Source of the DNA: a virus
Strand: one strand, 5' to 3'
Virus record (IMG/VR): IMGVR_UViG_3300010885_001553
Coordinates: 1 to 32,942 of that record
DNA: 32,942 nucleotides
In this document: one piece after another, positions 1,926-28,134 of the stretch
Position numbering within the stretch: the stretch's first letter is position 1
Layout of the letters: every line of letters starts with the position of its first letter
The notes under the pieces: generated by a model
Seen by the model: only the letters and a program-made list of their open reading frames with translations
Database searches by the model: none
Told to the model about the DNA's origin: nothing
Position numbers and translations under genes: made by a program

Positions 1926-4892
1926 ATGAACCCGCTTGATTTTATGGCGGCGGTTCTCCCACCACCGGGTAACGGGTATTACTGCGTGGTTGAACTGACA
2001 TCGAAATACAAAGAGCATGTATATAAGGAGACGCTGGAGGAGCTTGGGCCGACGATTGAGAACTGCAAGTTAAATGGGTATGACACGTACTTTGCACTGG
2101 GGACATTTAAAAAGCCCGATGACAGGTCAGCGCCCAACGTGGAGATGGTTAAGTGCATCGCTATTGATGTGGACTGTAATCATCCACTGGACTTGCCGGA
2201 TGCAAGCGGCGTAATCAAACAGAAAGCGTATGCGTCCCCCAAGGCGGGGTTTGAAGCCATCATGGCGTTCATCGATGAGGTCGGGCTGTCAGGTCTGGGC
2301 CAGCCTTGGTTCGTCCATTCGGGCGGCGGTGTACACGCATACTGGCCGCTGAAAGAAGCGATGCCCAAGTCGGTGTGGAAGCCGATAGCGGAGCAGTTCA
2401 AGCGCCTGTGCTTCTCCAAGAAGCTGGCTATTGACGCGACTGTGACGGGTGACCCATCGCGCATCCTGCGGGTGCCGGATACGATCAATAACGGGGTCAA
2501 GAGCGGCAAGAAGGTCAGGGGCGTTACCAACGTGCGCTTCATGAACGAGGGCGACTTCTTTGATATTGAAGACATCAAGGCGCTGGTCACCAAGCATCTG
2601 GCCGGTACACCCTACGAGTCCAAACCCACACCCCCGGCCAACGTGGTCGAGCTTCCCGGCCAGCGCCCAACGCTGCCCACAACGACTGAAGCAACCGGTA
2701 CAAGCGTCAAGCTGTTTGAGAACTCAGTGACCAAGTTTCGCAAGATATTTGATCGTACTAAGCAGGGTACAGGCTGCGGTCAACTCGCATACTACATTGA
2801 GAACGCCGAGCAGGATGGCATGGAGCCGCTGTGGCGGGGGTTGCTGTCGATAGCGCAGAAGTGCGAGGAAGCACCCAAGGCCGTCATCTGGCTGTCTCAG
2901 CTTCACCCGTATGACGAAGACCGGATGAACACCAAGCTGCGGGAGATCAAAGGTCCGTACCCCTGCACCAAGTTTGACTCCGAGAACCCCGGCGTGTGTA
3001 CACAGTGTGTACACTGGGGCAAGATCACCAATCCGCTGGCACTGGGGCGCGAGTACGCCGTTGAGGTAGCGCCCAAAGAGATCGACGTGCAAGCCGACAA
3101 CGAGCAGTATGCTCGCAAGGTGCTGCGCCCTGAACCGCCCAAGGGCTACGCCTATGGCAAGCAGGGCGGGGTGTTTATTGAGAAGGATGATGAGGACGCT
3201 AATGGCAACAAGATCAAGCGCCAGATCATGCTCATCCCCTACGACTTGTTTCCTGTGGACATCCTGAACTCCGGGGGCGAACACACGGTACACATGATGG
3301 CGATCAGAAACGGCAATGCCAGCACCATCACCATCCCGCAGAAATGCGTTGTCAGTAAAGACGAGACCATGAAGCAGTTGGCCAGCCAGAACATTCTGGC
3401 TTCCTTCGGGGCGGGCAACGACAAAAATCTGTACGACTACGTCCGTGCCTGTGTGGAGAAGGTAAGCGTGGAGAAGCAAACAGTTAGTGTGCCCACCAGC
3501 TACGGCTGGCAACCAGATGACACGTTCGTCTTTGCCGGGAAGATATACACGCCCAACGGCCAGATTGAAGTGCCCATGCAGGGGCTGGAGAACATCGTTG
3601 CCAACACCAAACCTACCGGCTCAATCGAGCAGTGGCGGGCGGTCATCAACCTGTTCATCCAGAAGAAAATGTGGCAGCACGTGTGCATCATGTTGGCAGG
3701 AGCAGGCGCTCCGTTGATGCGCTTTACCGGCATTTACGGCATGACGTTCCACTGCGGCTCAACCAACTCCGGTACAGGTAAATCACTGGCGCTGGAAGCT
3801 GCGGCTTCTGTTTGGGGGCATCCGGTTCACTATCGCACCAGTAAGGGAACTTCGCCTGTCGCCATGCAGCAACGACTGGGTCTGCTGCACAGCATCCCCC
3901 TGATAACGGATGAGATCACGGCGAAGAACCGGAAAGACTTTGCGTGGTTCTCCGAGTTCGTACTGGACATGACCAACGGGCGGGGCAAGGAGCGTATGGA
4001 GTCTGGCTCCAACAAGGAGCGAATGAATCTTTCTACGTGGATGGACATGTCCATCATGTCTTCCAACACGTACGTGGTGGACTACTTCACAGGCGCACAA
4101 TCCCACTCTGCGGAAGGCGAACTGCGACGCGTACTTGAGTTTGCAATGAACGATGTACTTACATGGGAACCACATGAGATTGAGATCATTAAGTCGTTGG
4201 CGGATAATTACGCAGTCGCGGGGCACATGCTCGTCGAGTATATGGTCCAGAATCTGGACAAGATTAAAGAGCTGGTTCCGCAAGTAGTCAGGCGTATGTA
4301 CGGCGAGTACCGTGCCACGAATGATGAGCGTTTCTGGATGGCGGCTATTGGCGCTGCGGTTGCTTCAGGCATCCTGTTTTCCGATGAGCACTGCGGTGCA
4401 ATCAACATCCCGATGCAGCCTGTGCTGGATACGTTCGGCAATGCCGTGCGGTATATGCGTAATGCCATCAACACAGGAACACGCTCTGCTGAAGATGTGC
4501 TGAACTCATTTACTCAGGAATACTACGGCAACTTCATCATTGTGAAGTTCAACGCTACTGAAGGTGTGTTGGCAGAGCTTGGCAACGGTGGGGCGATTGA
4601 TGCGTCTACTACCCGAACCAAGATCATGGGGCGCATCGAGCATGGCGCAACGGTCGGGTTTACGGACTACTACATCGAGGAGCGATTATTAAAAGCGTTC
4701 TGCTCCACCATGAGCTTCGGTTACGCCGACTTCAAGAAGTATCTGGAAGAGCAGTTCATGGTGTCGTATATGCCCAAGAAAGACATGACCGCCAAAACCA
4801 AAGGACCGCCGATGCGCGTGTCCGTCATGAAGATAAGCCGACGTTCCGATGAAGAAGACTTTACAGGTAACGTACCCTTGGTCGCAGCTTAA
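1926..4892 (+). CDS. Primase-helicase (AEP-type primase fused to a P-loop helicase/ATPase)
   Basis: This 988-residue replication protein is well supported. The N-terminal part (about 1-230) looks like an archaeo-eukaryotic primase-type domain. It has a metal-binding IDVD (D81, D83), an HSGGGVHAYW motif (H131-W140) and a later DPSRILRVP segment (about 176-184). The C-terminal half is a P-loop ATPase resembling the DUF927/superfamily-3-like helicases of phages and plasmids. Walker A is GSTNSGTGKS (611-620, K619) and Walker B is PLITDE (658-663, D662/E663). The middle has a CTKF...GVCTQC cysteine cluster, a possible small zinc site. It would prime and unwind DNA at the phage replication fork. 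The ATG follows AAAGGA with normal spacing. It is the last + strand gene, directly before the terminator zone. Confidence 0.85.
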   Translation: MNPLDFMAAVLPPPGNGYYCVVELTSKYKEHVYKETLEELGPTIENCKLNGYDTYFALGTFKKPDDRSAPNVEMVKCIAIDVDCNHPLDLPDASGVIKQKAYASPKAGFEAIMAFIDEVGLSGLGQPWFVHSGGGVHAYWPLKEAMPKSVWKPIAEQFKRLCFSKKLAIDATVTGDPSRILRVPDTINNGVKSGKKVRGVTNVRFMNEGDFFDIEDIKALVTKHLAGTPYESKPTPPANVVELPGQRPTLPTTTEATGTSVKLFENSVTKFRKIFDRTKQGTGCGQLAYYIENAEQDGMEPLWRGLLSIAQKCEEAPKAVIWLSQLHPYDEDRMNTKLREIKGPYPCTKFDSENPGVCTQCVHWGKITNPLALGREYAVEVAPKEIDVQADNEQYARKVLRPEPPKGYAYGKQGGVFIEKDDEDANGNKIKRQIMLIPYDLFPVDILNSGGEHTVHMMAIRNGNASTITIPQKCVVSKDETMKQLASQNILASFGAGNDKNLYDYVRACVEKVSVEKQTVSVPTSYGWQPDDTFVFAGKIYTPNGQIEVPMQGLENIVANTKPTGSIEQWRAVINLFIQKKMWQHVCIMLAGAGAPLMRFTGIYGMTFHCGSTNSGTGKSLALEAAASVWGHPVHYRTSKGTSPVAMQQRLGLLHSIPLITDEITAKNRKDFAWFSEFVLDMTNGRGKERMESGSNKERMNLSTWMDMSIMSSNTYVVDYFTGAQSHSAEGELRRVLEFAMNDVLTWEPHEIEIIKSLADNYAVAGHMLVEYMVQNLDKIKELVPQVVRRMYGEYRATNDERFWMAAIGAAVASGILFSDEHCGAINIPMQPVLDTFGNAVRYMRNAINTGTRSAEDVLNSFTQEYYGNFIIVKFNATEGVLAELGNGGAIDASTTRTKIMGRIEHGATVGFTDYYIEERLLKAFCSTMSFGYADFKKYLEEQFMVSYMPKKDMTAKTKGPPMRVSVMKISRRSDEEDFTGNVPLVAA

Positions 4893-5014: not shown

Positions 5015-8000
5015 TTACTGGGGTCTGGTTTCACCTGTGACCGACAAGAACCGTTGCGCAAGGCGATACTGGCGGTCATCGATCTTTTCCAGCAGTTCGT
5101 CTTTCTCTGCGGCGGTTCTGTTCGACGCTATTACTTGACGCCGCGCTGTAGCCAATTCGCCCAACTGCTGTCTGACTTCACCGGACAAACTGACGTTAGC
5201 CAACTTGTTGCGGTACTGATCCAAGAAAGCTGCTGCTTCTTTTTCTTTACCCGACTCACGCAAACTCTTGTAGGTGCCCTGCACCTGCTGAACCTCAAGG
5301 ATGCGCTCGTACGCAGCGTCCAATGTCCCCCTACCTTCAACCGGCTGGAACAACCCGCCGATGAACGGCATTTTGCTGGTCTTCATAGTGGGCTTCTCAA
5401 CCGCGCTGACTTCCGTGTTCAGGATAGGATTAGCCAGTGAGGCAATCGCCACACCCAGACCGCCAGTGTAACCACGAATCAGGTAGTCAATCTTGATCGG
5501 AGTAAGCCCCGCATCGCCTGTGATGCGGCCTAGCATCTTGGCGATTTCTGTTGTGCCTTCACGATACCGCTCACCCGGCATCGATGTGGTCTGCTCACGC
5601 TTAGACTCAATGTCGCCACCGAAGAACGAACGGCCAAGGATAACTTCAGTTGCAGGCTTGATTGCGGCTGGCAACGCAAACGGATTTGATTGCGCCAACA
5701 GTTTGCTCATACCTTTGATGATGTCTTGATTGCGTTCGTCTTCTGCGGCAGTGTTGTACACCGCTTCTGGCAATGCCTTAAACAGGTAACCCAATTCAAA
5801 TGGAATAGGCACTCGCATCGGTTCATCCGAAAACGGCGTGTACACAAACCAATTACCCAGACGTTCTTCAGGCTTGGCGCGTTTGTACGCTTCATCATCT
5901 TCCATCGCCGCAGCGTAAGCCAGTGTGCCCGCCGCCAACAGCAAGCCGCGAGTGTAAAGTTTTTGGCGAATCTTCAACTGGTCGTTGTACGGCATCTGCC
6001 CTTTGAACGCCCGGTATAACACATCCAGACCTTGAATCTGTGCGTTGAAGAACGGGATGACTGTTGAGAGCATCTGTATCGAAGGCGACAAACCGCGACG
6101 GCTAAAGTTCATCGACTCCAGTGTGCGCATATACGCCTGCATCTCAGACATACCTTTGGCCAGCGAGTCCTTGTAGATCACAGCGCGGGTTGCAGCATCG
6201 CCCTGCATTGCCAGCGCGTCTGCCCGCATCATCCATTTTGCCCAGCCAGATTTACCAAGGCTAACATCGCGCAAAGCTCGGGACATGTCTTCCATATCCC
6301 CCGTCATAACGTTGCTGGAGATAACGCCCGCTTGCATCAACTCAGTTGCTTCTTTACTGCGACCGGCCACAGCGCGCGCAATTTCAGTCATTGAGTTCAA
6401 CACCGGAACGCCGTCTGTGCCTGTTGTCAGCCATGCAGTTACCGAATCACGAATGGGCTGACGTAAAGCATAGGTTGGATTGCGAGTAACAAATTTTCTC
6501 AGTATGTTGGCGGGTATTCCCATGAATTTAATTGCTAACGGGACGGTGGTCTTAATGCCTTCCATACCCTTAACAATCAAATCTGCCGGGATGCCATACA
6601 TCTCTGAGTCAATGACAGCAAAGTGATCTTCGCCTTTAACTTTAAATCTAATTGTATTTGACCCATCCGGGCCTCGACCTTTACCAATTTTGCTGGCAAT
6701 GCCGAGCCGCGCCAACAGCATAGCGTTATCTTTAACCATCTGATTGCGCAAAGCCATGCGTGTCAGCAGAAACGCATTCTGGGCTGAACTTGTAAAGATC
6801 GGAAGAATGGCTTTGTTACCGCCAACAAGCTCATGCAAAATCGGTTCGTCTTTGATGTTGGCAATACGAATAGGGCGTTCTTTGTCTACCCATAAATTAA
6901 GAGTGCCATCTTTTTCAGCCCGATAAAACGGTACATAACTAACAGCTTTTAGTTGCGCGGCTAAACTTGGTTTCATGTAGCCGGTCTGCACAAGAAAATC
7001 AACCAGACCGTTGTTGTACTCCTTGTAAATCTTGGAAGCTTCTTCAAAAGCGGCCTTTGCTTTGGGATTGTCATTCAATTCTGCCATGAGCTTGTTGTAG
7101 GCAGCTTCTGCCGCAGCAGGATTTGCAAAATCTAATTTATCCCATCCGACTTGTTTAGCTCGGGGGCCGGCCTCGTATATGGTGGCCATTTCTTCCAGTT
7201 CAGTACTGTTTTTAATTCCCGACTTTTGCAACGCTTCGGCATACTTAGCCAGACTTGCCCCCGGAGTACTCTTATAAACAAATCCTGCCCCACGCTTATC
7301 TCTGACTAAAGACAACGGCCCGTTTGTAATTGCTTGCGTAGCATAAGCGTTGGCCTGCTGGCCAAAGCGCAGGTAGTAGCCTGCCTGCTCGGCTTCCAAG
7401 TCAGAGATAACGCCAGCGTCCAGACCTTTTTTAATAGCCGCATCGAGCGCCGCGTACTGGTCAACAAACTGCACACGACCAGACAAACCCAACATGTTGC
7501 CGCGCAGATCGTCGATGATACCTTTCTGGCCACCAACAAATGCTTGCCCGTAACGGCTTGGCTCACGCTTGGTACGGAAAGCCATCACACCGCCTTCTGC
7601 ACGGTAAGGGCCGACAGTACGATCATTAAAAGCTTTGTTGGCCAGCTTGATGGCATAGAACACATCCGACGTAGACATCCGCGCCATGTTCTTAAAGCCC
7701 ATCCGACGCAGCGCAGAACGCACCATGCCGACAAACTCTTTCAACCAACGGTCAGCTTTCTCACGGAAACTCTCAGTAATGCGCTTCTGTGCTGTGTAGG
7801 CAATAACTTCGCGCAGGGCTTGCAGCTTTTGTACTTCTTCAGACTTGCCTTGTTCAGCAGCAAACTTAGCAGCAGCCACTGCTTCACGCACCAACGGCTC
7901 ACCACCCAGCTTTTCGGCCAGCGCAATAACGTCAGTGTCGTTTGCGTACTTCTGCAACCGCTCCATGCCGATCACGGTGTCGATGCCGTAGTGACCTACC

Positions 8001-13085: not shown

Positions 13086-14150
13086 TTACGCCTTCTCCAT
13101 GTCGTAGAGCAGCAGTTCAGACAGACCCGCCGGAGCATCCGACTCTTTAATTGCACCACCTTTTTTACGAGACATCCCGTAGGCTGCGAGTCCCAAACCG
13201 CCAAGTTGAGAAATCATGGATGGCGGTGTTCCGTACATTGTCGATGCTGTTTGAGACAATGGCAAGCCGCGCAGCATGTCGGACATAAACGCCAACTGCT
13301 GGTACGGATACTGACGCTGATTTGCAAAATCCTGATACTGTTGTTGCAGTCGCTGCTGCTCCAGCGCCTGTTGTTGCTGTCCCAAACTAGCCTGTCCTTG
13401 GATCGCTGCTTGTTGCTGGCCGAACTGAGTCTGGCCCAACTGACCCAAAGTACCTGCCATTTGCCCTGCGGTCTGAAGCCCCTGCAATCCAAGCGTTGAA
13501 CCAAACTGCTGTGCCTGACGCGCTTGCTCGTAGGCTGTCTGCATACCTTTGCCGTAGATGTCCGCTTGCTGCTGCCCCAAATTACGCTGGCGCTCTGCCT
13601 CCACAATTGCCGAACGCGAACCACCAAAGGCACCCTGCTGTACAGCCTGTGCTTGGTTCTGCTGACCTAATATAGCGGACTGCCGTGCGGCTTCGCGCAT
13701 CTGGGGAGCCAGTGCGTTCTCCACGTACGGCGACATGTACGCTTGCATAGCGTAGGGGTTAGTGGCTTGCATGGCATAGTTTTGACCAGCGCCCATCGCA
13801 CCCAGACCGGCAAGTCCTGCCATCTGCGTACCAACACCTAACTGCTGTGCTGGCCCCAAGTTCGCCGCTGCTTGTTGCGCCTGCTGTTGCATGGGGGTAA
13901 ACCCGGCAATACGTTCACCTTGGTATGCCTGATAAGGCGCATTTCCCAGCGCCTCGGTTTTACCCAGCATACGTTCGACATACGGCTTGGCGTATTCGGG
14001 AATCGTTGTTTGCTCAACGGTTTGTTTTTCAGGCTGCGAGGGAGCAGACCCGCCTCCGCCATAGATACGTCCGCCGGGTTTTAGTCGTGTGACGCTCTCG
14101 CCAAGCGGTTCGCCAAAGTATTCCAGTTGTCTGCGTGAGTAAGTCATCAT
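13086..14150 (-). CDS. Gln/Ala-rich putative internal virion protein
   Basis: This 354-residue protein is very rich in Gln, Ala and Gly. Residues about 75-290 are an almost unbroken helical stretch with words like QQQAQQAAANLG, QQADIYGKGMQTAYEQARQAQQFG and LGQQQQALEQQRLQQQYQ. The C-terminus is a short Gly-rich hydrophobic segment (SQLGGLGLAAYGMSRKKGG). Two adjacent ATGs exist (14150 and 14147). The AGGGG site sits better for the second, so the true start may be one codon shorter. It ends three bases before the next gene. The composition resembles phage core/ejection proteins such as T7 gp14/gp15 in style only; no homology is claimed. Confidence 0.5.
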   Translation of the reverse strand: MMTYSRRQLEYFGEPLGESVTRLKPGGRIYGGGGSAPSQPEKQTVEQTTIPEYAKPYVERMLGKTEALGNAPYQAYQGERIAGFTPMQQQAQQAAANLGPAQQLGVGTQMAGLAGLGAMGAGQNYAMQATNPYAMQAYMSPYVENALAPQMREAARQSAILGQQNQAQAVQQGAFGGSRSAIVEAERQRNLGQQQADIYGKGMQTAYEQARQAQQFGSTLGLQGLQTAGQMAGTLGQLGQTQFGQQQAAIQGQASLGQQQQALEQQRLQQQYQDFANQRQYPYQQLAFMSDMLRGLPLSQTASTMYGTPPSMISQLGGLGLAAYGMSRKKGGAIKESDAPAGLSELLLYDMEKA

Positions 14151-19757: not shown

Positions 19758-20588
19758 TTAGCTCGTGTAAATGTTTAGCGTGGTGCCTACTACTTCTATC
19801 CGAACACCGCCGATAGTGGACGACGTAGCAAATGTTTGCGCAATCGTTGGGTTACCTGACACACCATTACCGTTAGTTACAGCAATACCGTTACCCGCAG
19901 TAATTGTTCTGGCAGTTGTAGTAGCCGCAGCGGTTCGCACCAACACACCATTCGCGCCGGGGTCTTGCAAGGCAGTGCCAACTTCAGTACGAACAAAAGC
20001 CGTTGTAGCAACCTGTGTTGTATTTGTACCAGCGGCGGCGGTAGGCGCTACAGGAGTGCCGGTCAAAGTGGGGGATGGGATGTTACCTGATACAGTTAAG
20101 TTGCCCGTCACAGTTGCATTACCCGTTACAGACGCATTACCGCCAACAGCAAAGTTGCCTACGATCTGGTCCAGCGACTCCACAAAGTTTGTGCCGTCTG
20201 AGCGCACCAAAACAGATTTACCTGCTGGGATAGCCACGCCGGTTCCGGCTGCGGTTGTGTTGCCAATGACGGTCGAGCAGTAAATAGTAGCAACGTAGGC
20301 ACTTCCGTTCTTGACGATGTACGTCTTAGTAACCGGCGGCGCGTAGACGGCAAAGTTGGCAGTCGTTGTTGTAGTCAGGCTGAGAACCGCACACCGCGCT
20401 TGGTCTACTGCGCCATTCTGAGCAGTCAGCGCTTGGTTTGCGCTTATTACAGACACCGATGCCAAAGCAGAGATAGCGTCCTCAATGACGGTGCCGAGGT
20501 TACTATTGGTTGTGGTGCCCCACGTACCGGACTGTTCGCCGTTGGCAATTAATTCGATCCGTAGATCGGGACTGTATGTACTTGGCAT
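19758..20588 (-). CDS. Tail fibre protein
   Basis: This 276-residue protein starts at ATG 20588 behind AAGGAAC. The opening (SPDLRIELIANGEQSGTWGT) and the following strand region form a conserved N-terminal part of many phage fibre proteins. A shaft with ASVTGNATVTGNLTVSGN repeats lies at about 150-168. The APTAAAGTNTTQVATTAFV word (about 180-200) is common in phage tail-fibre shafts. The C-terminus is beta-rich. It is expected to bind a host surface structure; specificity is unknown. The lysis genes lie immediately upstream in transcription order. Confidence 0.65.
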   Translation of the reverse strand: MPSTYSPDLRIELIANGEQSGTWGTTTNSNLGTVIEDAISALASVSVISANQALTAQNGAVDQARCAVLSLTTTTTANFAVYAPPVTKTYIVKNGSAYVATIYCSTVIGNTTAAGTGVAIPAGKSVLVRSDGTNFVESLDQIVGNFAVGGNASVTGNATVTGNLTVSGNIPSPTLTGTPVAPTAAAGTNTTQVATTAFVRTEVGTALQDPGANGVLVRTAAATTTARTITAGNGIAVTNGNGVSGNPTIAQTFATSSTIGGVRIEVVGTTLNIYTS

Positions 20589-20600
20589 TGTCGTTCCTTG

Positions 20601-21113
20601 TTAAGCCAGCATGGTTTCAGCGTGGGTCTTGGCTTCTGCCACCCGGCGCAGCCACCCTTTACCGAATGTCGCAAACGTAGGCAGACTGCGGTAAAACGCT
20701 TCCTTTTCTGCACTGAATTTTGCCACTAATTCGCTCTGATTGGCATCTTTTAATGACTGCATAGTCTTGGGGCCGATAGCGCCATCCGGGGTAGTGCCGA
20801 TGGCTTTTTGCATGGTTTTGATCGCCCGACCGGGGCCAGCGTTAATAGCGAAGTCGAACATCAGGTAGTCCAGACCGTCAGGCATTTCGTCGCCCTTGAC
20901 CGAATCCCAGTATTTTTTGCGGTACATAGGGGCCACAATCTCAGGAGTCAACGCACGCATTGCCTTTTCGTCAACAGGATGGCCTACCCATTCCTCCCAG
21001 ACTTTTTGAGTTACCCCCAGATTAGTTCGGCCACCGGGGTCTTTTGGATTATTTACGTAGCCGCCTTCGTGTTTCAGGATGGCGTTAAGGGCTTCTTGGA
21101 AGTTCTCTTTCAT
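20601..21113 (-). CDS. Endolysin: GH108-type muramidase with peptidoglycan-binding domain
   Basis: This 170-residue protein matches the phage glycoside hydrolase 108 layout. The N-terminal motif HEGGYVNNPKDPGGRTNLGV (about 15-34) carries the likely catalytic glutamate, E16. About 100-170 is the family's C-terminal peptidoglycan-binding part (KTMQKAIGTTPDGAIGPKTM, then QSLKDANQSELVAKFSAEK). No signal peptide is present, so release depends on a holin. It would cut the glycan backbone of murein. The gene follows the spanin pair and overlaps the end of the i-spanin gene by 29 bases. The start is ATG 21113, with AGGAG about ten bases upstream. Confidence 0.85.
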   Translation of the reverse strand: MKENFQEALNAILKHEGGYVNNPKDPGGRTNLGVTQKVWEEWVGHPVDEKAMRALTPEIVAPMYRKKYWDSVKGDEMPDGLDYLMFDFAINAGPGRAIKTMQKAIGTTPDGAIGPKTMQSLKDANQSELVAKFSAEKEAFYRSLPTFATFGKGWLRRVAEAKTHAETMLA

Positions 21114-21585
21114 TTCTCAGTATCTCCTGACAAGCATTTAGTTGGTGGGTGATTTCGTCGGCGTCGGCTGCGATGGTGATAAGAGCTTGCGCAGCCTCTC
21201 CTGAAAGTCGGGCTTTCGTTCCTCCATGATCGCTGCTGGGACTGGGGGAAGCACTGGGCACGGCGTTACTATTGTCTGGACACGCGGCGTCGATGTACAA
21301 CCCGTCAGTACGAGCAACATCAATAAGCTTTTGCTTTTCCACTTCAACAGTTCTAACTTTGTCAACATAGACCTTCTCCACTCTTGTTTGTGTGTTCGCC
21401 AGCAGGTGTTCTAGTTCACGAACTTCCTTATTGGCTTTGTCCAGCGCTTTGCCCGCTTCAATTGCCGCTGTGGCTTTCTCAGCTTCCCACTCCGCCTTAG
21501 TTACTTGTACACCTGTATGATGCCCATAGAAGTAAGCGCACACGGCAAAAACAAGCGCACCGATAATCACGTAAGGGTTAGGCAT
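21085..21585 (-). CDS. Rz: i-spanin (Rz-like), inner-membrane lysis protein
   Basis: This 166-residue protein uses ATG 21585. A GTG at 21630 would add 15 basic residues but lies inside the upstream holin gene. MPNPYVIIGALVFAVCAYFY is a single N-terminal transmembrane segment. It is followed by a long charged periplasmic helix (AEWEAEKATAAIEAGKALDK and on to about 80), which is the coiled coil of Rz proteins, and then a Ser/Pro-rich C-terminal part. It pairs with the o-spanin nested inside it to span the periplasm and fuse the inner and outer membranes at lysis. It overlaps the holin stop by eight bases. Confidence 0.8.
   Translation of the reverse strand: MPNPYVIIGALVFAVCAYFYGHHTGVQVTKAEWEAEKATAAIEAGKALDKANKEVRELEHLLANTQTRVEKVYVDKVRTVEVEKQKLIDVARTDGLYIDAACPDNSNAVPSASPSPSSDHGGTKARLSGEAAQALITIAADADEITHQLNACQEILRNERELPRSP
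21138..21368 (-). CDS. Rz1: o-spanin (Rz1-like) lipoprotein nested inside the i-spanin gene
   Basis: This 76-residue protein is encoded wholly inside the i-spanin gene in another frame. MLTKLELLKWKSKSLLMLLV followed by LTGC is a lipoprotein signal peptide. The lipobox is L21-T22-G23-C24, so mature residue 1 is C24. The mature 53 residues are proline-rich (for example PCPVLPPVPAA and SQPTPTKSPTN), which is characteristic of Rz1. The start has its own strong ribosome-binding site, GGAGAAGG at 21372-21379. Together with the i-spanin it forms the spanin complex for outer-membrane disruption. Confidence 0.85.
   Translation of the reverse strand: MLTKLELLKWKSKSLLMLLVLTGCTSTPRVQTIVTPCPVLPPVPAAIMEERKPDFQERLRKLLSPSQPTPTKSPTN
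21372..21379 (-). promoter_or_regulatory. Ribosome-binding site of the nested o-spanin
   Basis: GGAGAAGG on the - strand lies three bases before the ATG at 21368. It is embedded in the i-spanin coding frame. It makes the nested start credible rather than a chance ORF. Confidence 0.7.
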
Positions 21586-21862
21586 TTTCTTCTTTCCCTG
21601 CTTTGATGGATTCAATCTTCTCCTGCCCACGAGTCCAAGCAGAGATGCCCAAAATTGCCATGAAGGTGATGTGGATGAAACCGCCAGACTGAAGCGTCAA
21701 CGAATTCCATTCACGGAAAGCATCATTAACCGCCTGCGTCTCCCAGAATTGCACAATCGTCCACAAAACAGGAAACAGTACAAAGTCGCACAGGCAGATA
21801 ATCATGTAGGTGACCGCCATCATGGGTCGCCATTTAGTTGTCATCCAATCAGTAGCATTCAT
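21578..21862 (-). CDS. Holin-like membrane protein
   Basis: This 94-residue protein has two clear transmembrane segments, about 15-39 (MAVTYMIICLCDFVLFPVLW and on) and about 60-76 (GGFIHITFMAILGISAW). A charged C-terminal tail (TRGQEKIESIKAGKEENA) follows. Length, the order of segments and the position just before i-spanin, o-spanin and endolysin fit a holin, possibly of the Pfam 'holin of 3TMs' group. It would permeabilise the inner membrane to release the signal-less endolysin. Its start overlaps the previous gene by four bases. Confidence 0.7.
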   Translation of the reverse strand: MNATDWMTTKWRPMMAVTYMIICLCDFVLFPVLWTIVQFWETQAVNDAFREWNSLTLQSGGFIHITFMAILGISAWTRGQEKIESIKAGKEENA

Positions 21863-22110
21863 TCTTCACCCCTCATTTCACGTAGAACTTTCAACCGTAA
21901 TTCCTTCATCTTGCGGGTTTCTTGCTCCGCACGGTACAGCGCGTTGTTCATATCCATATACATCACACCCATCACCGGCAGGGCAATCACTAGCACAAAA
22001 CACAAGACCACCACGGCGACAAGTAGTGCCCACGGTACGTCTGGCTCAGACGAAGAAGGAGGAGGACTCCGACGTACCACGCCACGACGAAAAGGATTGC
22101 TCCAACCCAT
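21859..22110 (-). CDS. Small single-span membrane protein upstream of the holin
   Basis: This 83-residue protein starts at ATG 22110 with only a weak AAGAAG site upstream. A basic, Pro/Ser-rich N-terminus (about 1-24) is followed by one hydrophobic segment at about 26-50 (VPWALLVAVVVLCFVLVIAL and on) and a charged helical tail (YRAEQETRKMKELRLKVLRE). It overlaps the upstream gene by 121 bases in another frame and the holin by four. Position suggests a lysis or membrane-associated role, perhaps a holin partner; this is inferred. The family is not recognised. Confidence 0.55.
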   Translation of the reverse strand: MGWSNPFRRGVVRRSPPPSSSEPDVPWALLVAVVVLCFVLVIALPVMGVMYMDMNNALYRAEQETRKMKELRLKVLREMRGEE

Positions 22111-22700
22111 ACCGCTTCTTCTTTCCTTTTTCTTGCCAGTCTGCGTCTTTGCGCCGCCTCAATCTGCATCTTTGCAGTTTCCCGCTTGTGTGCCTCGTCC
22201 TGCTCTACAACAATCTGACGCCACATCTTCTCGTACTTGCCCCACAGGTCACCCAGTTCAGGCGGCGCTTTGTAGACCATCGTCTCGCGCAGTTCAGCTA
22301 ACATTGCATCCAACCTTGACCGGACTATGACGCGCATCAAGGCCCGCTTGCCAATCGACTCCGTGCCTGTGTAAACCTGATGCGCCTCTGCTTCCTGCTG
22401 CAAGAACACCTTGCCAATCTTGTCGTACTCATCCATCAACGCACCCAGATCATTACCAATCTGGATAAACACATCGTTCGGGTCGGCCTTGCCTATCTCC
22501 TGCACCCGCTGCACTTCCTCGTTGTACTGAATCTTCTGTGCGTTCGTTGGATTCGGTATCTTCTGGAACTGCGACTTCAGATCATCCAGTACGTCTTTTA
22601 CTTCCCCCGCTGCACCCTTGATGTCCTTGTAAAGCTGGCATCCTTTCTTAACCGCAGCGACAGCAGCGTTGGCAGCAGCTAAGAGCGTTAGCGGGTCAAT
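21990..22700 (-). CDS. Membrane-anchored helical protein with apparent ATT start
   Basis: The open frame runs from 22700 to a stop at 21990 (236 residues). The only in-frame ATG/GTG/TTG is GTG 22514, which would drop 62 residues. The lost part looks like real protein (DPLTLLAAANAAVAAVKKGC, then QLYKDIKGAAGEVKDVLDDL). At its front, GGAGGAA (22704-22710), then TAA, then ATT GAC gives a textbook spacing of five bases between GGAGG and ATT. The TAA is the stop of the preceding small gene. The protein is mostly charged helix. One hydrophobic segment lies near the C-terminus (AVWVGAILFVVAWYVGVLLL), and the last residues are YLSPWWSCVLC. The role is unknown; it sits at the head of the lysis module. 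A sequencing or assembly error at the start codon is the main alternative. Confidence 0.6.
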   Translation of the reverse strand: MDPLTLLAAANAAVAAVKKGCQLYKDIKGAAGEVKDVLDDLKSQFQKIPNPTNAQKIQYNEEVQRVQEIGKADPNDVFIQIGNDLGALMDEYDKIGKVFLQQEAEAHQVYTGTESIGKRALMRVIVRSRLDAMLAELRETMVYKAPPELGDLWGKYEKMWRQIVVEQDEAHKRETAKMQIEAAQRRRLARKRKEEAVWVGAILFVVAWYVGVLLLLRLSQTYRGHYLSPWWSCVLC

Positions 22701-22859
22701 TTATTCCTCCGCTGGTTCCGGGGTGTTGCCTTCTTCAAGCCACTTTAAATACGCTTGGTAATCTGTGTTGGCTGGATCAAATGGGATGCTTGTGTTGTCC
22801 GCAAGCCTAGTTACAGAAACAATGTTTTGAGAGGGAAGCGATTTATATAGTTTATACAC
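22701..22859 (-). CDS. Small tail-associated protein, GTG start
   Basis: This 52-residue ORF starts at GTG 22859, directly after the TAA (22860-22862) of the fibre gene, with GGAG six bases upstream of the stop/start junction. The translation runs through YKLYKSLPSQNIVSVTRLAD, then NTSIPFDPANTDYQAYLKWL and EEGNTPEPAEE. The SIPFDPANTDYQAYLKWLEEG pattern is typical of small phage proteins encoded next to tail-fibre genes. Because of this and its junctions I consider it real. A fibre-assembly or fibre-bound role is inferred. Its stop directly abuts the ATT start of the next gene. Confidence 0.7.
   Translation of the reverse strand: MYKLYKSLPSQNIVSVTRLADNTSIPFDPANTDYQAYLKWLEEGNTPEPAEE
22704..22710 (-). 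promoter_or_regulatory. Shine-Dalgarno site supporting the ATT start at 22700
   Basis: GGAGGAA on the - strand lies inside the last codons and next to the stop of the 22701-22859 gene. It is one of the strongest ribosome-binding sites in the window. The spacing from GGAGG to the ATT codon is five bases. This supports coupled translation of the two genes. Confidence 0.6.
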
Positions 22860-23843
22860 TTACAACTCCGACGAGAAAGAATATCCACCACTTCCAGTAT
22901 CCATAATATAAGCAGTGCCAGCAGCTAACCCAGATGCGGCACCACAATCAATCCCTGCGCTATAAATAGTCATTCCAGCGGCAGTTGCGCTTGTAATACT
23001 AATTGCGCTTCCCGCTTCTGCTCTTGGTGTCCCTGAAATTGTTACAGATGGCGTTGACCTCATAGCAACAGGAAATGGAAAACCAAAACGAACATTTATT
23101 GTTGATGAGCCAGACCCTGTTGCAATGCGATTGTTTGACCCACCAAAAACAGTGTTTGTAAATGCAATGAAGTACCGCTGACACAACGCCAACTCCGTAC
23201 CATACGGCCTGTAGTCAAAGCTGGTGGCTGTGCTGCCTTTTTCGAGCTGCATGTTACCAATTGTCCAAGTGCCTGATGTTTGAGCGCCTACGGTCAAAAG
23301 AATTTCAATCCCTGTAGTAGCTGCTGCCGGGACACTAATCTGGGCGTTATAATTTGTAACTGTGGATGTGACGGTAAATGTACCCGTTGCAATTTGAGTT
23401 TTGGTTGGGGTACCAATAGTTCCAAACGTATCGGCGGTGTTTGCATAGCTGGCTGTCCATGTCACTGTTGTTAACACAGAGTTAGCCAAATCCACCGACA
23501 AAGTACAAGTGTTTCCAGCAAGATCATAACTATTCAACGCTTCAATCCGCTGACCAACGCCAACCGCAGTTACTGATGCAGCACCTGTAATTTGCATTCT
23601 GTTTTTTACCGCTCCAGAACCAGCTACTTGAGCCGCCGTTACGTTAGCACCAGTTGAGTACACAAAGAAACGATCAACCGCCGGATACCCTGTAGAAGCC
23701 GTAGGAACAGCAGTGCCAGCAGTTACTGTGGCAGACGTAGAACGCTGGGAAATTTGCATTTGCCCATTAATAATCCGGTTCTTGAAGCCGTAATACTGCG
23801 CGTTGGAGTCGAGCAGTCCGGGGGAGACGGTTGTTAATGCCAT
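22860..23843 (-). CDS. Tail fibre / receptor-binding protein
   Basis: This 327-residue protein starts at ATG 23843 behind GGAG. The N-terminal part (NRIINGQMQISQRSTSATV, then YPAVDRFFVYST) and the later NMQLEKGSTATSFDYRPYG plus ELALCQRYF words are a familiar set in phage tail fibres and appendages. Between them lies a jelly-roll-like beta domain resembling carbohydrate-binding modules (about 60-205). About 235-327 is a separate Ser/Gly/Ala-rich tip. It is likely a host-surface glycan-binding fibre. It is followed immediately by the small tail-associated gene. Confidence 0.65.
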   Translation of the reverse strand: MALTTVSPGLLDSNAQYYGFKNRIINGQMQISQRSTSATVTAGTAVPTASTGYPAVDRFFVYSTGANVTAAQVAGSGAVKNRMQITGAASVTAVGVGQRIEALNSYDLAGNTCTLSVDLANSVLTTVTWTASYANTADTFGTIGTPTKTQIATGTFTVTSTVTNYNAQISVPAAATTGIEILLTVGAQTSGTWTIGNMQLEKGSTATSFDYRPYGTELALCQRYFIAFTNTVFGGSNNRIATGSGSSTINVRFGFPFPVAMRSTPSVTISGTPRAEAGSAISITSATAAGMTIYSAGIDCGAASGLAAGTAYIMDTGSGGYSFSSEL

Positions 23844-23846
23844 GAT

Positions 23847-24110
23847 TTACTCCGGTTTCGGATACTTTGTCTTGACTGCATCAATTGCGGCCTTCCATGC
23901 GTCATAGCCGCCGTGGTACAACAGGTCGAACTGATCCGCAAATGATGGGTACTCGGCTGCACGTTGGCGTTTGTATTCTGTCTTGGCAATCTCGGCATCT
24001 ACCAGCGCAGGGTCATATTCAACCACGTTATTTTGGTCGTCGTAGGCAATACCATCACGAAGCGTGACGACTTGCGGGTATAGCTTGAATATAAAATCAG
24101 CGCGATTCAT
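23847..24110 (-). CDS. Small tail-fibre-associated protein
   Basis: This 87-residue protein starts at ATG 24110, overlapping the upstream fibre gene by four bases (ATGA). The N-terminus is strand-rich (FIFKLYPQVVTLRDGIAYDD). The C-terminus is helical (RAAEYPSFADQFDLLYHGGY, then DAWKAAIDAVKTKYPKPE). The YPSFADQFDLLYHGG word recurs in small proteins beside phage fibre genes. It may bind or help assemble the neighbouring fibres. It is charged and has no membrane segment. Confidence 0.6.
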   Translation of the reverse strand: MNRADFIFKLYPQVVTLRDGIAYDDQNNVVEYDPALVDAEIAKTEYKRQRAAEYPSFADQFDLLYHGGYDAWKAAIDAVKTKYPKPE

Positions 24111-24571
24111 CCTGCTATCTCCATTAGCGTAATGGTTGACTTATTACTTGTCAGCGCATTTATTTGAAAAGCATACGAAGTACCCGCAGTCTGGTTTCTT
24201 TTTATTTGAACCTTGTACGTTATTGCGGATGTTGTTGCAGGTGAATCTAAATACGCCATAATAGCGCGTGCATTAATCGCAACGTTTGCATTAACTCCAT
24301 TACCTATGGCATTGTCATCCGTATAAACTGCCGTTGAATCACGCACTATTTGAATGCCGCCGCGAGTTGAGTTATCTGCTTGTATGTAATAACTAGCGTC
24401 AAGCAAAATTAAAATTTTACTGCTTGTGGAAGTTGGCGTTATCGACGCTGTAAATCCATTAGCATCAACATAAGAAGAACTTGTAGTCGAAGTATTGCTG
24501 CCTGTAAGCGCCTGCACAACCTGCAATACACCACCAGCCCCGGCTAACGCTGTATTAACTGCGCGTGTCAT
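24107..24571 (-). CDS. Minor tail-fibre-type protein
   Basis: This 154-residue protein starts at ATG 24571 in a TAATG junction with the S74 fibre gene. It is a compact beta-rich, Ser/Thr/Asn/Ala-rich domain with words such as VLQVVQALTGSNTSTTSSSY, KILILLDASYYIQADN and STITLMEIAG. There is no signal peptide. Its length, composition and position between fibre genes suggest a receptor-binding tip or fibre tip subunit. The family is not identified. Confidence 0.55.
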   Translation of the reverse strand: MTRAVNTALAGAGGVLQVVQALTGSNTSTTSSSYVDANGFTASITPTSTSSKILILLDASYYIQADNSTRGGIQIVRDSTAVYTDDNAIGNGVNANVAINARAIMAYLDSPATTSAITYKVQIKRNQTAGTSYAFQINALTSNKSTITLMEIAG

Positions 24572-25929
24572 TATTTGGCCTCCAGTGCGGCTACTTTAGC
24601 CTTCAGTTCTTCGATCATGGCTTGCTGTTCTTGCATTGCCTTAATGAGCATCGGCACAAACACGCTGTATTTCACACCTTTCATGCCATCGCGGTCTTCC
24701 TCAATCATGCCGGGGAATATCTGCTCCAGCTCCTGCGCGACAACACCAATTTGCTTTTGCGCGTCACCCACCATGTTGAAATTAACGACGCGAACTTGGT
24801 TTAGCTTTTCGAGCTTTGGCGTGGCATCAACGATGTTTTCTTTGATACGCTGGTCAGACAAAGAGCCGTAGCTGTTATTTGCGTTAAGCAAATTGCCGTT
24901 AGCGCGAATCAACATCTTTAGAGTGGTGTTGTTATCAAACACCGTCAAAGCGTTGTATTCAGTTGTAGCCCCAGACCTCGCGCAGCTAATTTGAACAACG
25001 TCGTTTGCGTAGCTTGTGCTTGATGCGTAAAACCGTGCTGAAGATGCAGAAGTGGATGATTGTGTAACCCCGAACTTTTCAGCCGAGGTTTGTGCAGTTT
25101 GCCCCACCAGCAGATTACCGCTAGTGTCGATACGTGCGCGTTCGTTGTTGTTGGTTACAAACGTGTAAGCGTGGTTTGTGTATGTGCCGCTAATTCCAAC
25201 AGAAGATGTTGTATTCCACTGAGTATAAACAGAACCTGTCGTTAAAGTAGAGTCAACAGAAACCCATGCAGTTGGGTTTGTGGCGTTTACAAGGTATGTA
25301 CTTGAACCGCGAACATCTAACTTTGCACTCGGCGAACTCGTACCAACCCCCACGTTGCCGCTACTAACCGCAAGATTTACGCCCGCATTAAATGTACTAG
25401 CCCCCGTCACCGTGCCGCCAGTCAACGGCAAAGCGTTTGATATGGAAGTCAGGGTATAAACCTGAATCACCACGCTGTCGCCAGCCGTACAGGCATTTGC
25501 AAGGGTTACCGTCGTTCCGTTCGTTGCTGTGTAGTCAGCAGGGGCAAGCTGGGAGCCGTTACGGATGACGTTGATGAAGCCCGGTGTGTACGATCCTGAC
25601 GGGGTGAACGTGGTTTGGCTGGCAGTTGCTGTGAACGAAGTCGATGAGAAGTACGCCGTGTTGCCCGGTGACGATACGCCGATGACTGGCAGTCCTAAGT
25701 AGAGGACGGAAATATTGTTCGTGCCGGTAGGCGGTGCGCCTGAGAATGTCAGGGTGGTGCTGACAACAGCATACGTATTTGGGTTCTGTACTACGCCTGA
25801 TACCGCAACAAGAATAGAAGATGCACTGGCTGGCGCATACGTCAGCGTGAATGCTGTGGTTGAACCGTTACCGCTGAACTGATCAAACGGAAACGCTGCT
25901 GTGGTAGGTTGTGCGCCGATGAATGCCAT
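24571..25929 (-). CDS. Tail fibre with C-terminal S74 intramolecular chaperone
   Basis: This 452-residue protein starts at ATG 25929 behind GGAAGG. Residues 1-80 form an N-terminal attachment-type module (FDQFSGNGSTTAFTLTYAPA) shared with the fibre at 27211-28134. The middle is Ser/Thr/Asn-rich shaft, including a VGVGTSSPSAKLDVRGSSTY repeat-type word (about 197-216). The C-terminal 95 residues are the endosialidase-type chaperone (peptidase S74). S358-D359 begins SDQRIKENIVDATPKLEKLN, and a coiled coil follows (MIEELKAKVAALEAK). In this family the chaperone trimerises the fibre and cuts itself off just before the serine. Auto-cleavage before S358 is therefore predicted. Confidence 0.8.
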   Translation of the reverse strand: MAFIGAQPTTAAFPFDQFSGNGSTTAFTLTYAPASASSILVAVSGVVQNPNTYAVVSTTLTFSGAPPTGTNNISVLYLGLPVIGVSSPGNTAYFSSTSFTATASQTTFTPSGSYTPGFINVIRNGSQLAPADYTATNGTTVTLANACTAGDSVVIQVYTLTSISNALPLTGGTVTGASTFNAGVNLAVSSGNVGVGTSSPSAKLDVRGSSTYLVNATNPTAWVSVDSTLTTGSVYTQWNTTSSVGISGTYTNHAYTFVTNNNERARIDTSGNLLVGQTAQTSAEKFGVTQSSTSASSARFYASSTSYANDVVQISCARSGATTEYNALTVFDNNTTLKMLIRANGNLLNANNSYGSLSDQRIKENIVDATPKLEKLNQVRVVNFNMVGDAQKQIGVVAQELEQIFPGMIEEDRDGMKGVKYSVFVPMLIKAMQEQQAMIEELKAKVAALEAK

Positions 25930-25932
25930 TAC

Positions 25933-26718
25933 TTAGCCTTCCCACATAACATTTACTGACCCAGCATCAAAAGTATCTGTGCCGTTGACGGTCGTTATTC
26001 GGACTCTGGTTAAAGTTCCACCCAGCGCGACATCGCCTCCACCATAAGCCAACTGACCCGTTGACACTTTTGTGGTGTGGTTTGATACCCACGTATTTCC
26101 GCTGATTAAGTTAAGGGTCATCGACCCAGAAATAATAAACGCGGCGTTATCTGAAAAAACAAGGAAGCCCGCAGTGGACGATGCGAAGCCCGCTGTGCTC
26201 TGTGTGTATGCGCCCGTTGAAACGTAGCCAGTATTTACGTTACCGCTGGCTGTCCCAAGCTGCACGAGTTTATGGCTGGTACCTGATGTACTAACGCCTT
26301 GGAATAACACGGTAATCCGCTTGGCAGTTGCCGGTATGTTGTAAAAATCCACGCCAATAATCGTAATGGTCGTTGATGCAGTTGTCTGTGATGTACTGAC
26401 AGTGTATGTACCTGTGCTGCCTGTGCCTGTACCCAGTGCCGTTATTGTTGTACCTGCCGTTACGCCTGTGCCGGTTATAAGCTGCCCCACCGCAATCGTT
26501 CCAGAGGCAACCGCCGTTACCGTCATGGTTGTACCAGAGATAGAAGCAGTAAACGACGTTGTTGCAGTAGAGACCGCTGTGCCTACGTTAATAGTCGATG
26601 ACCATGTATTGTCGCCACGCAGGAATGTAGTTGCACTGGGCGTACCAGTCGCAGCCAAGTCGGCGATAACAACCGCACCGTTAGCAATACTTGCGCTGAT
26701 TATTTGGTCAATTGACAT
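25933..26718 (-). CDS. Tail-fibre-type protein
   Basis: This 261-residue protein starts at ATG 26718 behind AGGA, after the cupin gene's stop. The opening ([20 protein letters not shown], then [17 protein letters not shown]) contains TFLRGDNTW, which is repeated in the fibre at 27211-28134. The middle (about 60-125) is Gly/Thr/Ser-rich with repeated TGT words. The rest is a beta domain ([17 protein letters not shown] and so on) ending in VNVMWEG. It is expected to be a shaft or tip fibre subunit. The shared TFLRGDNTW segment at DNA level suggests module exchange. Confidence 0.6.
26606..26631 (-). repeat. Dispersed repeat copy A (TFLRGDNTW segment)
   Basis: This 26-base stretch matches 27791-27816 at 25 of 26 positions. 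Both copies code for part of the TFLRGDNTW motif in two different fibre genes. The match is strong enough to serve as a homologous exchange point. Confidence 0.7.
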
Positions 26719-26726
26719 GTTTAGTC

Positions 26727-26993
26727 CTACTTCTGTATGTTCACAATACGACTATTGTCTTCCAGAGCAACAAACTCATGCGACTGGTCTGCCGGAAAAT
26801 CTATTACCGATCCTGCTCCATATTCTGCTGACCATTCATTACCATGCGCCTTAACCTTTCCACGAGCCACTATGGTTATATGTGCATCACCTTCTTGATG
26901 AGTGTGCATTGGCAACATATCACCGGCTTTCTCAAAGGTATAAATAGTTCCGGAGAGTTTTCCTGCGTTGAGCGCGGTATTAAGCAATGACAT
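26727..26993 (-). CDS. Cupin-domain small protein within the tail-fibre island
   Basis: This 88-residue protein starts at ATG 26993, where it overlaps the upstream gene's stop by 14 bases. GGTGG lies eight bases upstream. A longer ATG at 27074 would run through the upstream gene. The cupin signature is G24-DMLPM-H30-T-H32 in strand one, [20 protein letters not shown] in the middle, and FPADQ-S71-H72 near the second motif. H30, H32 and H72 are plausible metal ligands. Cupins bind metals or sugars and include isomerases, dioxygenases and carbohydrate-binding proteins. Here it may be an auxiliary or host-derived gene, or a structural minor protein. The activity is not predictable. Confidence 0.75.
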
Positions 26994-27198
26994 TAGGCGC
27001 ACCACCAATTGGTTGAGGTTTTGGAATAGGCAAAATTGCTTGCAATGCAGGATCATAATAAAACTGATCAGCAACTACTTCGTCTGCACACTCAACCCAA
27101 AACAAAGGAAATGCCACATCAAAATAAAAATCGCTAACTTGTGCAACACGAAAACCAAACTCATTGGTTTCGCTTGGTGAAATCAAAGCATTTTTCAT
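26980..27198 (-). CDS. Small tail-associated protein
   Basis: This 72-residue protein starts at ATG 27198 with AGGGG seven bases upstream. The sequence is beta-like and rich in aromatics and acidic residues (FRVAQVSDFYFDVAFPLFWV, then ECADEVVADQFYYDPALQAI). The tail is Pro-rich (LPIPKPQPIGGAP). It overlaps the cupin gene by 14 bases. It sits downstream of a glycine-rich fibre gene, as do similar small proteins after other fibres in this island. No named family is recognised. Confidence 0.55.
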   Translation of the reverse strand: MKNALISPSETNEFGFRVAQVSDFYFDVAFPLFWVECADEVVADQFYYDPALQAILPIPKPQPIGGAPNVIA

Positions 27199-27210
27199 TT
27201 TGACCCCTGC

Positions 27211-28134
27211 TTAATACTCAATAACTACAACGCCATTAGCTCCAGTACCACCGGCTGAGGGCTGTCCACCAGAGCCACCACCGCCATAAGCGCCGCCAGT
27301 TCCAGCTAACCCCCCAGCACCACCACCAAGAATAGTGGAGCCACCAACGCCCGGCCCGCTACTGGCATTTCCAGTTCCAGCGCCGCCTCGTATATTTAAA
27401 ATTCCTCCGCTGCCAACCCCGCCATTAACGCCAGCGCCGCTACCACCACCACCACCGCCACTACCACCCGTTGCGCTTACTGTAGAGATAGTTTGAGTGC
27501 CTGAAGCAACACTTGAAGTATTTCCAGAGACACCTGCACCTCCTCCTGCACTGCCGCCTGCACCGCCAGTACCGACAGTAATGTTAAGAGTATTCCCAAC
27601 TGTTAGCCCGGAAAAAATCTGAATTGCTGCGCCGCCGCCACCCCCACCCGCGCCAAAACTACAGCCAGCACCACCACCGCCACCACCGCCGCCAATTACT
27701 GTCACTTTAATTTTTGCAGCAGGAATAGAATATGCAGAATTTGTTGAAGTTATGGCCACCATGTTAGAAAAACCGCCAGCAGCAGCCCAAGTATTGTCAC
27801 CACGCAGGAATGTAGTCGAGCTTGGACTTCCTGTCGCACTTAACTGGCTGATACCTACCGAACCTTGTATCGGCGCAACTGATTGCAGGGTGGTTGACAT
27901 GTACCGCACATAAAACACCGTGCCGTTAGATACCGCTGGGCTAATAGTCAGGGTAGTGCCACTGACGCTGTATGAGGTTACGTTCTGCGCGACGTTGGCA
28001 ATGATGACCTGAATATCGCTTGTCGAGTTGACAGAGCGCGAAAGCGTCCAGCTTGTGGATGAGCCGTCGCCCGTGAACTGATCCGTTCCGGCAATGAAGT
28101 TTTGCGTCGTCGGAGTGTTGCCAAGGTACGCCAT
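27211..28134 (-). CDS. Tail fibre with a glycine-rich C-terminal tip
   Basis: This 307-residue protein starts at ATG 28134. Residues 1-85 (NTPTTQNFIAGTDQFTGDGS and on) are a paralogue of the N-terminus of the S74 fibre. TFLRGDNTW appears at about 107-115 and is shared with the fibre at 25933-26718. From about 145 onward it is glycine-dominated, with several blocks of four or more glycines, ending in GTGANGVVVIEY. Polyglycine tips are known from phage adhesins that read surface glycans (for example S16 gp38-type). It is likely a receptor-binding tip; host specificity is unknown. Confidence 0.65.
   Translation of the reverse strand: MAYLGNTPTTQNFIAGTDQFTGDGSSTSWTLSRSVNSTSDIQVIIANVAQNVTSYSVSGTTLTISPAVSNGTVFYVRYMSTTLQSVAPIQGSVGISQLSATGSPSSTTFLRGDNTWAAAGGFSNMVAITSTNSAYSIPAAKIKVTVIGGGGGGGGAGCSFGAGGGGGGAAIQIFSGLTVGNTLNITVGTGGAGGSAGGGAGVSGNTSSVASGTQTISTVSATGGSGGGGGGSGAGVNGGVGSGGILNIRGGAGTGNASSGPGVGGSTILGGGAGGLAGTGGAYGGGGSGGQPSAGGTGANGVVVIEY
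27791..27816 (-). repeat. Dispersed repeat copy B (TFLRGDNTW segment)
   Basis: This is the partner of the repeat at 26606-26631. It lies at the module boundary between the N-terminal part and the glycine-rich part of the 27211-28134 fibre. Confidence 0.7.

Follow-up and report, generated by a model that had tools for sequence, protein, structure and literature searches.

AUU start codons are extremely rare, and infC and pcnB are the standard cases in Escherichia coli. We know of no exchange of the start codon in pcnB. According to the account of Binns and Masters (2002) given in PMC13009471, the AUU start limits the translation of pcnB. In Staphylococcus, cvfC1 has a conserved AUU start with an extended Shine-Dalgarno (SD) sequence, and conserved AUU and AUA starts with extended SDs give about 10% of the AUG yield in this genus (PMC13009471). 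In the sigR-rsrA pair of Streptomyces, a GTC start keeps SigR below RsrA, and a change to ATG, GTG or TTG upsets the ratio; both the ratio and the effect of IF3 were measured there (PMC5472188). Statistically, SD strength is known to compensate for GUG and UUG starts (Belinky et al., PMC5622118). A literature search outside subscription journals found no paper on AUU starts in phage genes.

Here, we describe an AUU-started gene of a freshwater phage. It is located in a window of 32,942 nt, by which we mean the whole stretch of DNA that was analysed (positions 1 to 32,942 of IMG/VR record IMGVR_UViG_3300010885_001553). The gene resembles infC in having AUU at its true start and in that evolution has kept the weak codon. 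However, infC encodes IF3 and is autoregulated by IF3, whereas the phage gene encodes a membrane-anchored protein, and many of its relatives use GUG or AUG. With cvfC1 it shares a conserved AUU and an unusually strong SD, but cvfC1 is the first gene of a cellular operon, whereas the phage start lies at the stops of numerous unrelated upstream genes and, unlike that of cvfC1, exchanges with GUG lacking an SD. The likeness to pcnB, a single cellular gene, is the AUU start, which limits translation in pcnB. The sigR-rsrA pair differs in codon and function but has in common a non-canonical start and the scarcity of the first of two adjacent genes, which in the phage would have to be presumed.

The AUU-started gene and its product

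On the minus strand, the junction with the upstream gene reads ...GCGGAGGAATAA followed by ATT GAC CCG CTA ACG (Table 1). The ATT at 22700-22698 abuts the TAA at 22703-22701, which terminates the 52-aa gene, and the frame is open over 236 codons to its stop at 21990. A first-pass annotation of the window, made from the letters and open reading frames, had described the ATT directly after the TAA, the GGAGG at ideal spacing, the open frame to 21990, and the GTG at 22514 as the first conventional start. All of this proved accurate apart from the end of its interval, 22704, which lies a few bases too far. The anti-SD duplex energy of the GGAGG site is -9.5 kcal/mol. This SD is well placed and stronger than usual, as befits a genuine AUU start.

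Table 1 Positions of the AUU-started gene, its start-site elements and other features in the window.
Feature	Position	Strand	Remark
ATT start codon of the 236-aa gene	22698..22700	-	Homologous codon ATT, ATC, GTG or ATG in 227 relatives
GGAGG Shine-Dalgarno	22706..22710	-	Spacing of 5 nt to ATT; lies within the final codons of the upstream gene (GAG GAA TAA)
236-aa gene, DPLTLLAAANAAVAAVKKGCQLYKDIK...	21990..22700	-	All-helical body and C-terminal transmembrane helix
Predicted N-terminus of the AUU-initiated product			(fM)DPLTLLAAANAAV
GTG codon 63, first conventional in-frame start	22512..22514	-	Rejected as real start
52-aa upstream gene, GTG start	22701..22859	-	phrog_20370 (unknown function); its TAA touches ATT
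83-aa transmembrane gene, ATG start	21859..22110	-	Starts within the 236-aa gene, at its 3' end; different frame
94-aa holin-like gene	21578..21862	-	phrog_3427 holin; PF11351 GTA_holin_3TM weak, below its cut-off
Rz-like spanin	21085..21615	-	phrog_2466, 2.6e-16
Rz1-like spanin lipoprotein, nested in Rz	21138..21368	-	phrog_3198, 3e-10
Endolysin	20601..21113	-	phrog_315, 1.3e-51
Tail-fibre-like run, DNA ejection-like protein, primase/helicase-like gene	together 13086-14150, 19758-28134 and 1926-4892		

No significant Pfam or PHROG family was found for the 236-aa protein; one distant family member is weakly linked to phrog_32327, the function of which is unassigned. The AlphaFold2 model consists of helices only (mean pLDDT 78, pTM 0.51), and its final helix has a hydrophobic segment around residues 196-216 with basic residues before it. 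The model suggests a C-terminal membrane anchor on a body that would lie in the cytosol. Foldseek matches with low E-values were uncultured phage proteins only, and a fold search against the PDB found nothing. A helical, membrane-anchored product of this kind is not IF3, and autoregulation as in infC does not fit it.

The first codon across relatives

Relatives of the gene, which are uncultured, were collected from IMG/VR, where the first scan alone yielded 586 stretches encoding a relative. Codon 1 was readable in 79 of the first 80 loci and was GTG in 41, ATT in 35, and ATG in 3. The subfamily of the window was scanned with a DNA pattern starting from codon 2, which places no restriction on codon 1. 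The 148 distinct contexts obtained have ATT (85), GTG (55), ATC (4), ATG (2), GTT (1, with GTG one codon before) or TTG (1) at this position. In more distant relatives, codon 1 is ATG (51), GTG (16), ATT (9), or a Leu codon (3, with GTG one codon before). When pooled, 227 distinct records carry ATT 96 times, GTG 73 times, ATG 49 times, ATC 4 times, and other codons 5 times; a separate scan added three further contigs with ATA. These are counts of contigs and not of independent events, and therefore a tree and tests per upstream family were used (see below). A sequencing or assembly error at 22698-22700, where a single T to G change would make ATG, is excluded by the presence of ATT in another 95 distinct contigs, which originate from many different metagenome samples, and we regard its probability as practically nil.

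Since relatives outside the subfamily of the window carry ATG at exactly codon 1, followed by D-P-L-T, the AUU is the start. Each of the 35 ATT members in the first set has an in-frame stop 0 to 17 codons upstream (directly before ATT in about half of them), with no ATG, GTG or TTG between; three ATT loci of a later group (L218, L228 and L232) have a TTG 19 codons upstream. Gene finders limited to ATG, GTG and TTG would instead pick starts further in, such as the GTG at codon 63, and one deposited relative (MW202462) is annotated from codon 9. That translation begins at such a place, the preceding open frame being a product of chance or a leftover, is highly improbable given that relatives carry GTG or ATG at codon 1, that the first conventional start downstream of ATT is scattered from codon 6 to codon 89 among the first-set ATT members, and that codons 2-62 have the lowest dN/dS in the gene (0.036), reflecting strong protein constraint. 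The 62 codons before the GTG at 22514, which the first-pass annotation had read as ordinary helical protein, are thus best read as coding.

Third and synonymous positions vary freely in codons 2-12. Among ATT members with unrelated upstream DNA, sequence identity is ~0.25 (random) up to position -11, increases across the SD (-10 to -7), reaches 1.00 at the ATT, and then follows a 3-base coding rhythm. The 100 distinct relatives in the pooled set with Ile at codon 1 have ATT in 96 cases, ATC in 4, and ATA in none; elsewhere in the same genes, Ile is encoded by ATC (482), ATA (383) and ATT (379). Codon 1 does not behave like an ordinary codon for Ile, and ATT occurs there more often than expected by chance. 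In the subfamily, ATG is used in 2 of 148 contexts, whereas the next (83-aa) gene starts with ATG in 87 of 105 relatives and the endolysin gene in 22 of 22. Behind an upstream family ending in GAGGAATAA, codon 1 is ATT, ATC or ATA, but never ATG. A strict scan of 2.25 Mb of these contigs for other genes in which GGAGG and ATT head long frames without conventional starts found none; therefore, the AUU start is a property of this gene and not a habit that these phages have in general. We conclude that AUU is the true, conserved start and that AUG is avoided in the subfamily of the window. This agrees with the start proposed in the first-pass annotation, as the homologous codon is ATG or GTG in relatives and no usable conventional start is nearby. 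None of the objections that it had itself named (copies with ATG, homologues that begin near residue 63, a frameshift upstream) overturned this start.

Shine-Dalgarno strength follows the start codon

The mean anti-SD duplex energy was -7.2 kcal/mol in the Ile class, -2.3 kcal/mol in the GTG class, and -4.0 kcal/mol in the ATG class, compared with a baseline of -4.8 in these contigs for long ORFs that start with ATG. Values of -6 or better were found for 69% of the Ile-start members, the commonest form being GGAGG at spacing 5, and 43 of 55 GTG members have no recognisable SD. The difference persisted when one SD value was used per upstream family (-7.0 vs -2.7, p = 6e-7). On a tree of codons 2 onwards, which was obtained by a quick search and is blurred by recombination, 38 changes are required to explain the three start classes, and no fewer than 28 switches between Ile and the rest fall on well-supported branches. 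Across 28 independent Ile/GTG pairs on this tree, the SD follows the codon ~17 times and opposes it 0.4 times (p ~3e-5). Hence, the weak codon is paired with a strong SD and the better codon with a poor one.

If a strong SD were sufficient for initiation, AUU could be a true but neutral start that spreads by recombination together with a linker (GGAGGAATAA-ATT), with no selective advantage of a low yield. This would be in line with the frequent swapping of start region and upstream gene, the large number of start-class changes, and the short shared linkers that recur before unrelated upstream genes, but it accounts poorly for the near absence from the subfamily of ATG, which is one base away and which the neighbouring gene keeps. 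It also does not readily explain why the third base is T, C or A but not G within one upstream family, or why the SDs of members with canonical starts are poorer than those of other genes. Moreover, one AUU switch was recorded among 61,358 ancestral AUG starts (Belinky et al., PMC5622118). We consider a neutral AUU rather unlikely.

Upstream genes and exchange at the start codon

The genes upstream of Ile-start members belong to 32 families. Where the upstream gene of an ATT member could be identified, its stop shares the frame of the ATT in 52 members and occupies the two remaining frames in 22 and 20. The ATT could be an internal codon if the upstream gene were read through its stop, or frameshifted, into the frame of the AUU gene, as the in-frame TAA of the window and the variable third base of the Ile codon in one lineage might suggest. 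With upstream stops in all three frames (42 members outside the ATT frame), this is excluded as a general explanation, and given unrelated upstream genes and ATG at the same codon in relatives we rate it as extremely improbable. The contact between upstream stop and start, from which the first-pass annotation had derived additional coupling, is not peculiar to the window, as close contact is a family trait.

Across all relatives, 56 upstream gene families are exchanged right at the start codon (22700 in the window) and share short linkers. Judging from these sequences, the start codon, at the head of the lysis module, appears to mark a boundary for recombination. The loci L245 and L248 are nearly identical in the gene and in the upstream DNA but have the start regions AAATAAAATGTGGATCC and AAATAAAATTGATCC, respectively; the difference is a 2-nt indel that turns the GTG start into ATT. 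An AT precedes the GTG in 39 of 73 GTG members, from 12 of 22 upstream families (for example L002, L005, L008 and L022). These members have an out-of-frame AUG 2 nt upstream of the start (AUGUG), which may possibly act as a decoy; some of them share the linker TAAnCCnAT, and thus not all are independent.

Several other accounts of the start region were rejected. One was a missing 5' end of the gene as the cause of its opening with ATT. Another was a conserved out-of-frame mini-ORF over the start, with its start at the UUG in AUUG or the AUG in AUGUG and its stop at the TAA of CTA-ACN. Codons of the form xTA are indeed frequent at Leu-4, but early +1-frame stops show no excess over synonymous resampling (0.75 vs 0.71), and ATC and ATA members lack the UUG that this idea requires. 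A regulatory hairpin was dismissed as folding over the start is no better than in dinucleotide shuffles (z 0.08, Ile class). Finally, the ATT is not codon 2 of an M-I-D-P protein with a lost ATG: an M-I-D-P reading was found only in distant families (phrog_32327-like; the downstream gene in L243; MW202710), and no close member turned up in a scan with the pattern ATG-ATH-GAY-CCN-YTN-ACN.

A lysis cassette downstream of the gene

The AUU gene is followed by the overlapping 83-aa membrane gene, the holin-like gene, Rz/Rz1, and the endolysin gene. Holin, spanin and endolysin neighbours recur beside homologues of the AUU gene in divergent phages, as expected for a lysis cassette; the ATG relatives at the greatest distance (L251, L265 and L266, for example) did not show these surroundings. 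Together with the C-terminal hydrophobic helix, this bears out the earlier description of the gene as membrane-linked and at the head of a lysis module.

The 83-aa gene overlaps the AUU gene by 121 nt. Across the last codons of the AUU gene, in the overlap, dS is 0.48, compared with 1.3-1.5 before, and an overlapping membrane ORF was also found in distant family members. The lowered dS and the recurrent ORF indicate that the 83-aa gene is real and that selection acts on both overlapping frames. In L243, the segment 1919-2416, after a family member and in the same cassette, encodes another protein whose N-terminus is similar (M-I-D-P-M-T-A-L...; phrog_32327); by its sequence, it looks like a distant paralogue of the AUU-gene family.

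A weak start as a possible control of dose

We propose that AUU is a selected weak start. The initiator tRNA would pair poorly with AUU, and the strong, well-placed SD overlapping the end of the upstream gene would restore part of the lost initiation, so that the protein would be made at a low, roughly set level. In related phages, GUG with almost no SD and an adjoining upstream stop would provide a second route to a similar level. The helical, C-terminally anchored product at the head of the lysis cassette would thereby be kept scarce relative to the overlapping AUG-started next gene, and also relative to the holin and endolysin behind it. That a selected weak AUU start keeps this tail-anchored protein scarce relative to the product of the overlapping next gene is, in our view, likely. 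Translation at a low rate, as the first-pass annotation had suggested, is the most economical reading of the match between SD and codon, the tree, the ATG starts of the neighbours, and the baseline of ATG ORFs. What these data describe directly is the start site, from which we infer that less protein is made, that initiation is sensitive to IF3, and that the gene has a part in lysis stoichiometry or timing. An AUU with a GGAGG SD could, as far as its sequence goes, also give an ordinary yield. A low dose is not vital everywhere, because outgroup members use ATG, as do two subfamily contexts, and conservation could partly be hitch-hiking, because the start codon and its SD may travel together by recombination at the upstream linker.

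IF3 represses non-canonical starts and re-initiation without an SD (PMC2268962), and thus AUU with an SD and GUG without an SD behind a stop both fall in IF3-repressed groups. That AUU starts respond to IF3 has been established in other systems (infC; PMC5472188, PMC2268962). The subfamily might then have been selected off AUG and onto IF3-repressed modes, namely AUU with an SD and GUG re-initiation without one, such that IF3 or the translational state of the host would set the dose and hence the timing of lysis. We regard this extension as possible but tentative, and IF3 as a timer of lysis, which rests on analogy, as an attractive guess. If the low-dose idea is true, translation fidelity would be linked to phage lysis control. 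With more than half of the subfamily contexts starting with AUU, at least 28 class changes, and matched SDs, the family represents a natural experiment on the tuning of initiation strength.

Additional observations on annotation, host and window

Gene finders limited to ATG, GTG and TTG truncate or miss such genes. In L201 (MW202462.1, 6001-6690), the deposited CDS begins at codon 9 (6025); from the sequence, the homologous start is most likely the GTG at 5998-6000, one codon before CTA. The search for a host gave one doubtful contig, and phage searches gave only distant matches. This contig (L203, RGVM01000128.1), from a "Chitinophagia" MAG, ends in an AUU-gene fragment (6809-7110) that starts abruptly at codon 10; it is probably chimeric or mis-binned and hence provides no host evidence. 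Besides the lysis cassette, the minus strand of the window carries a series of tail-fibre-like genes, as well as a DNA ejection-like protein, and the plus strand a primase/helicase-like gene.
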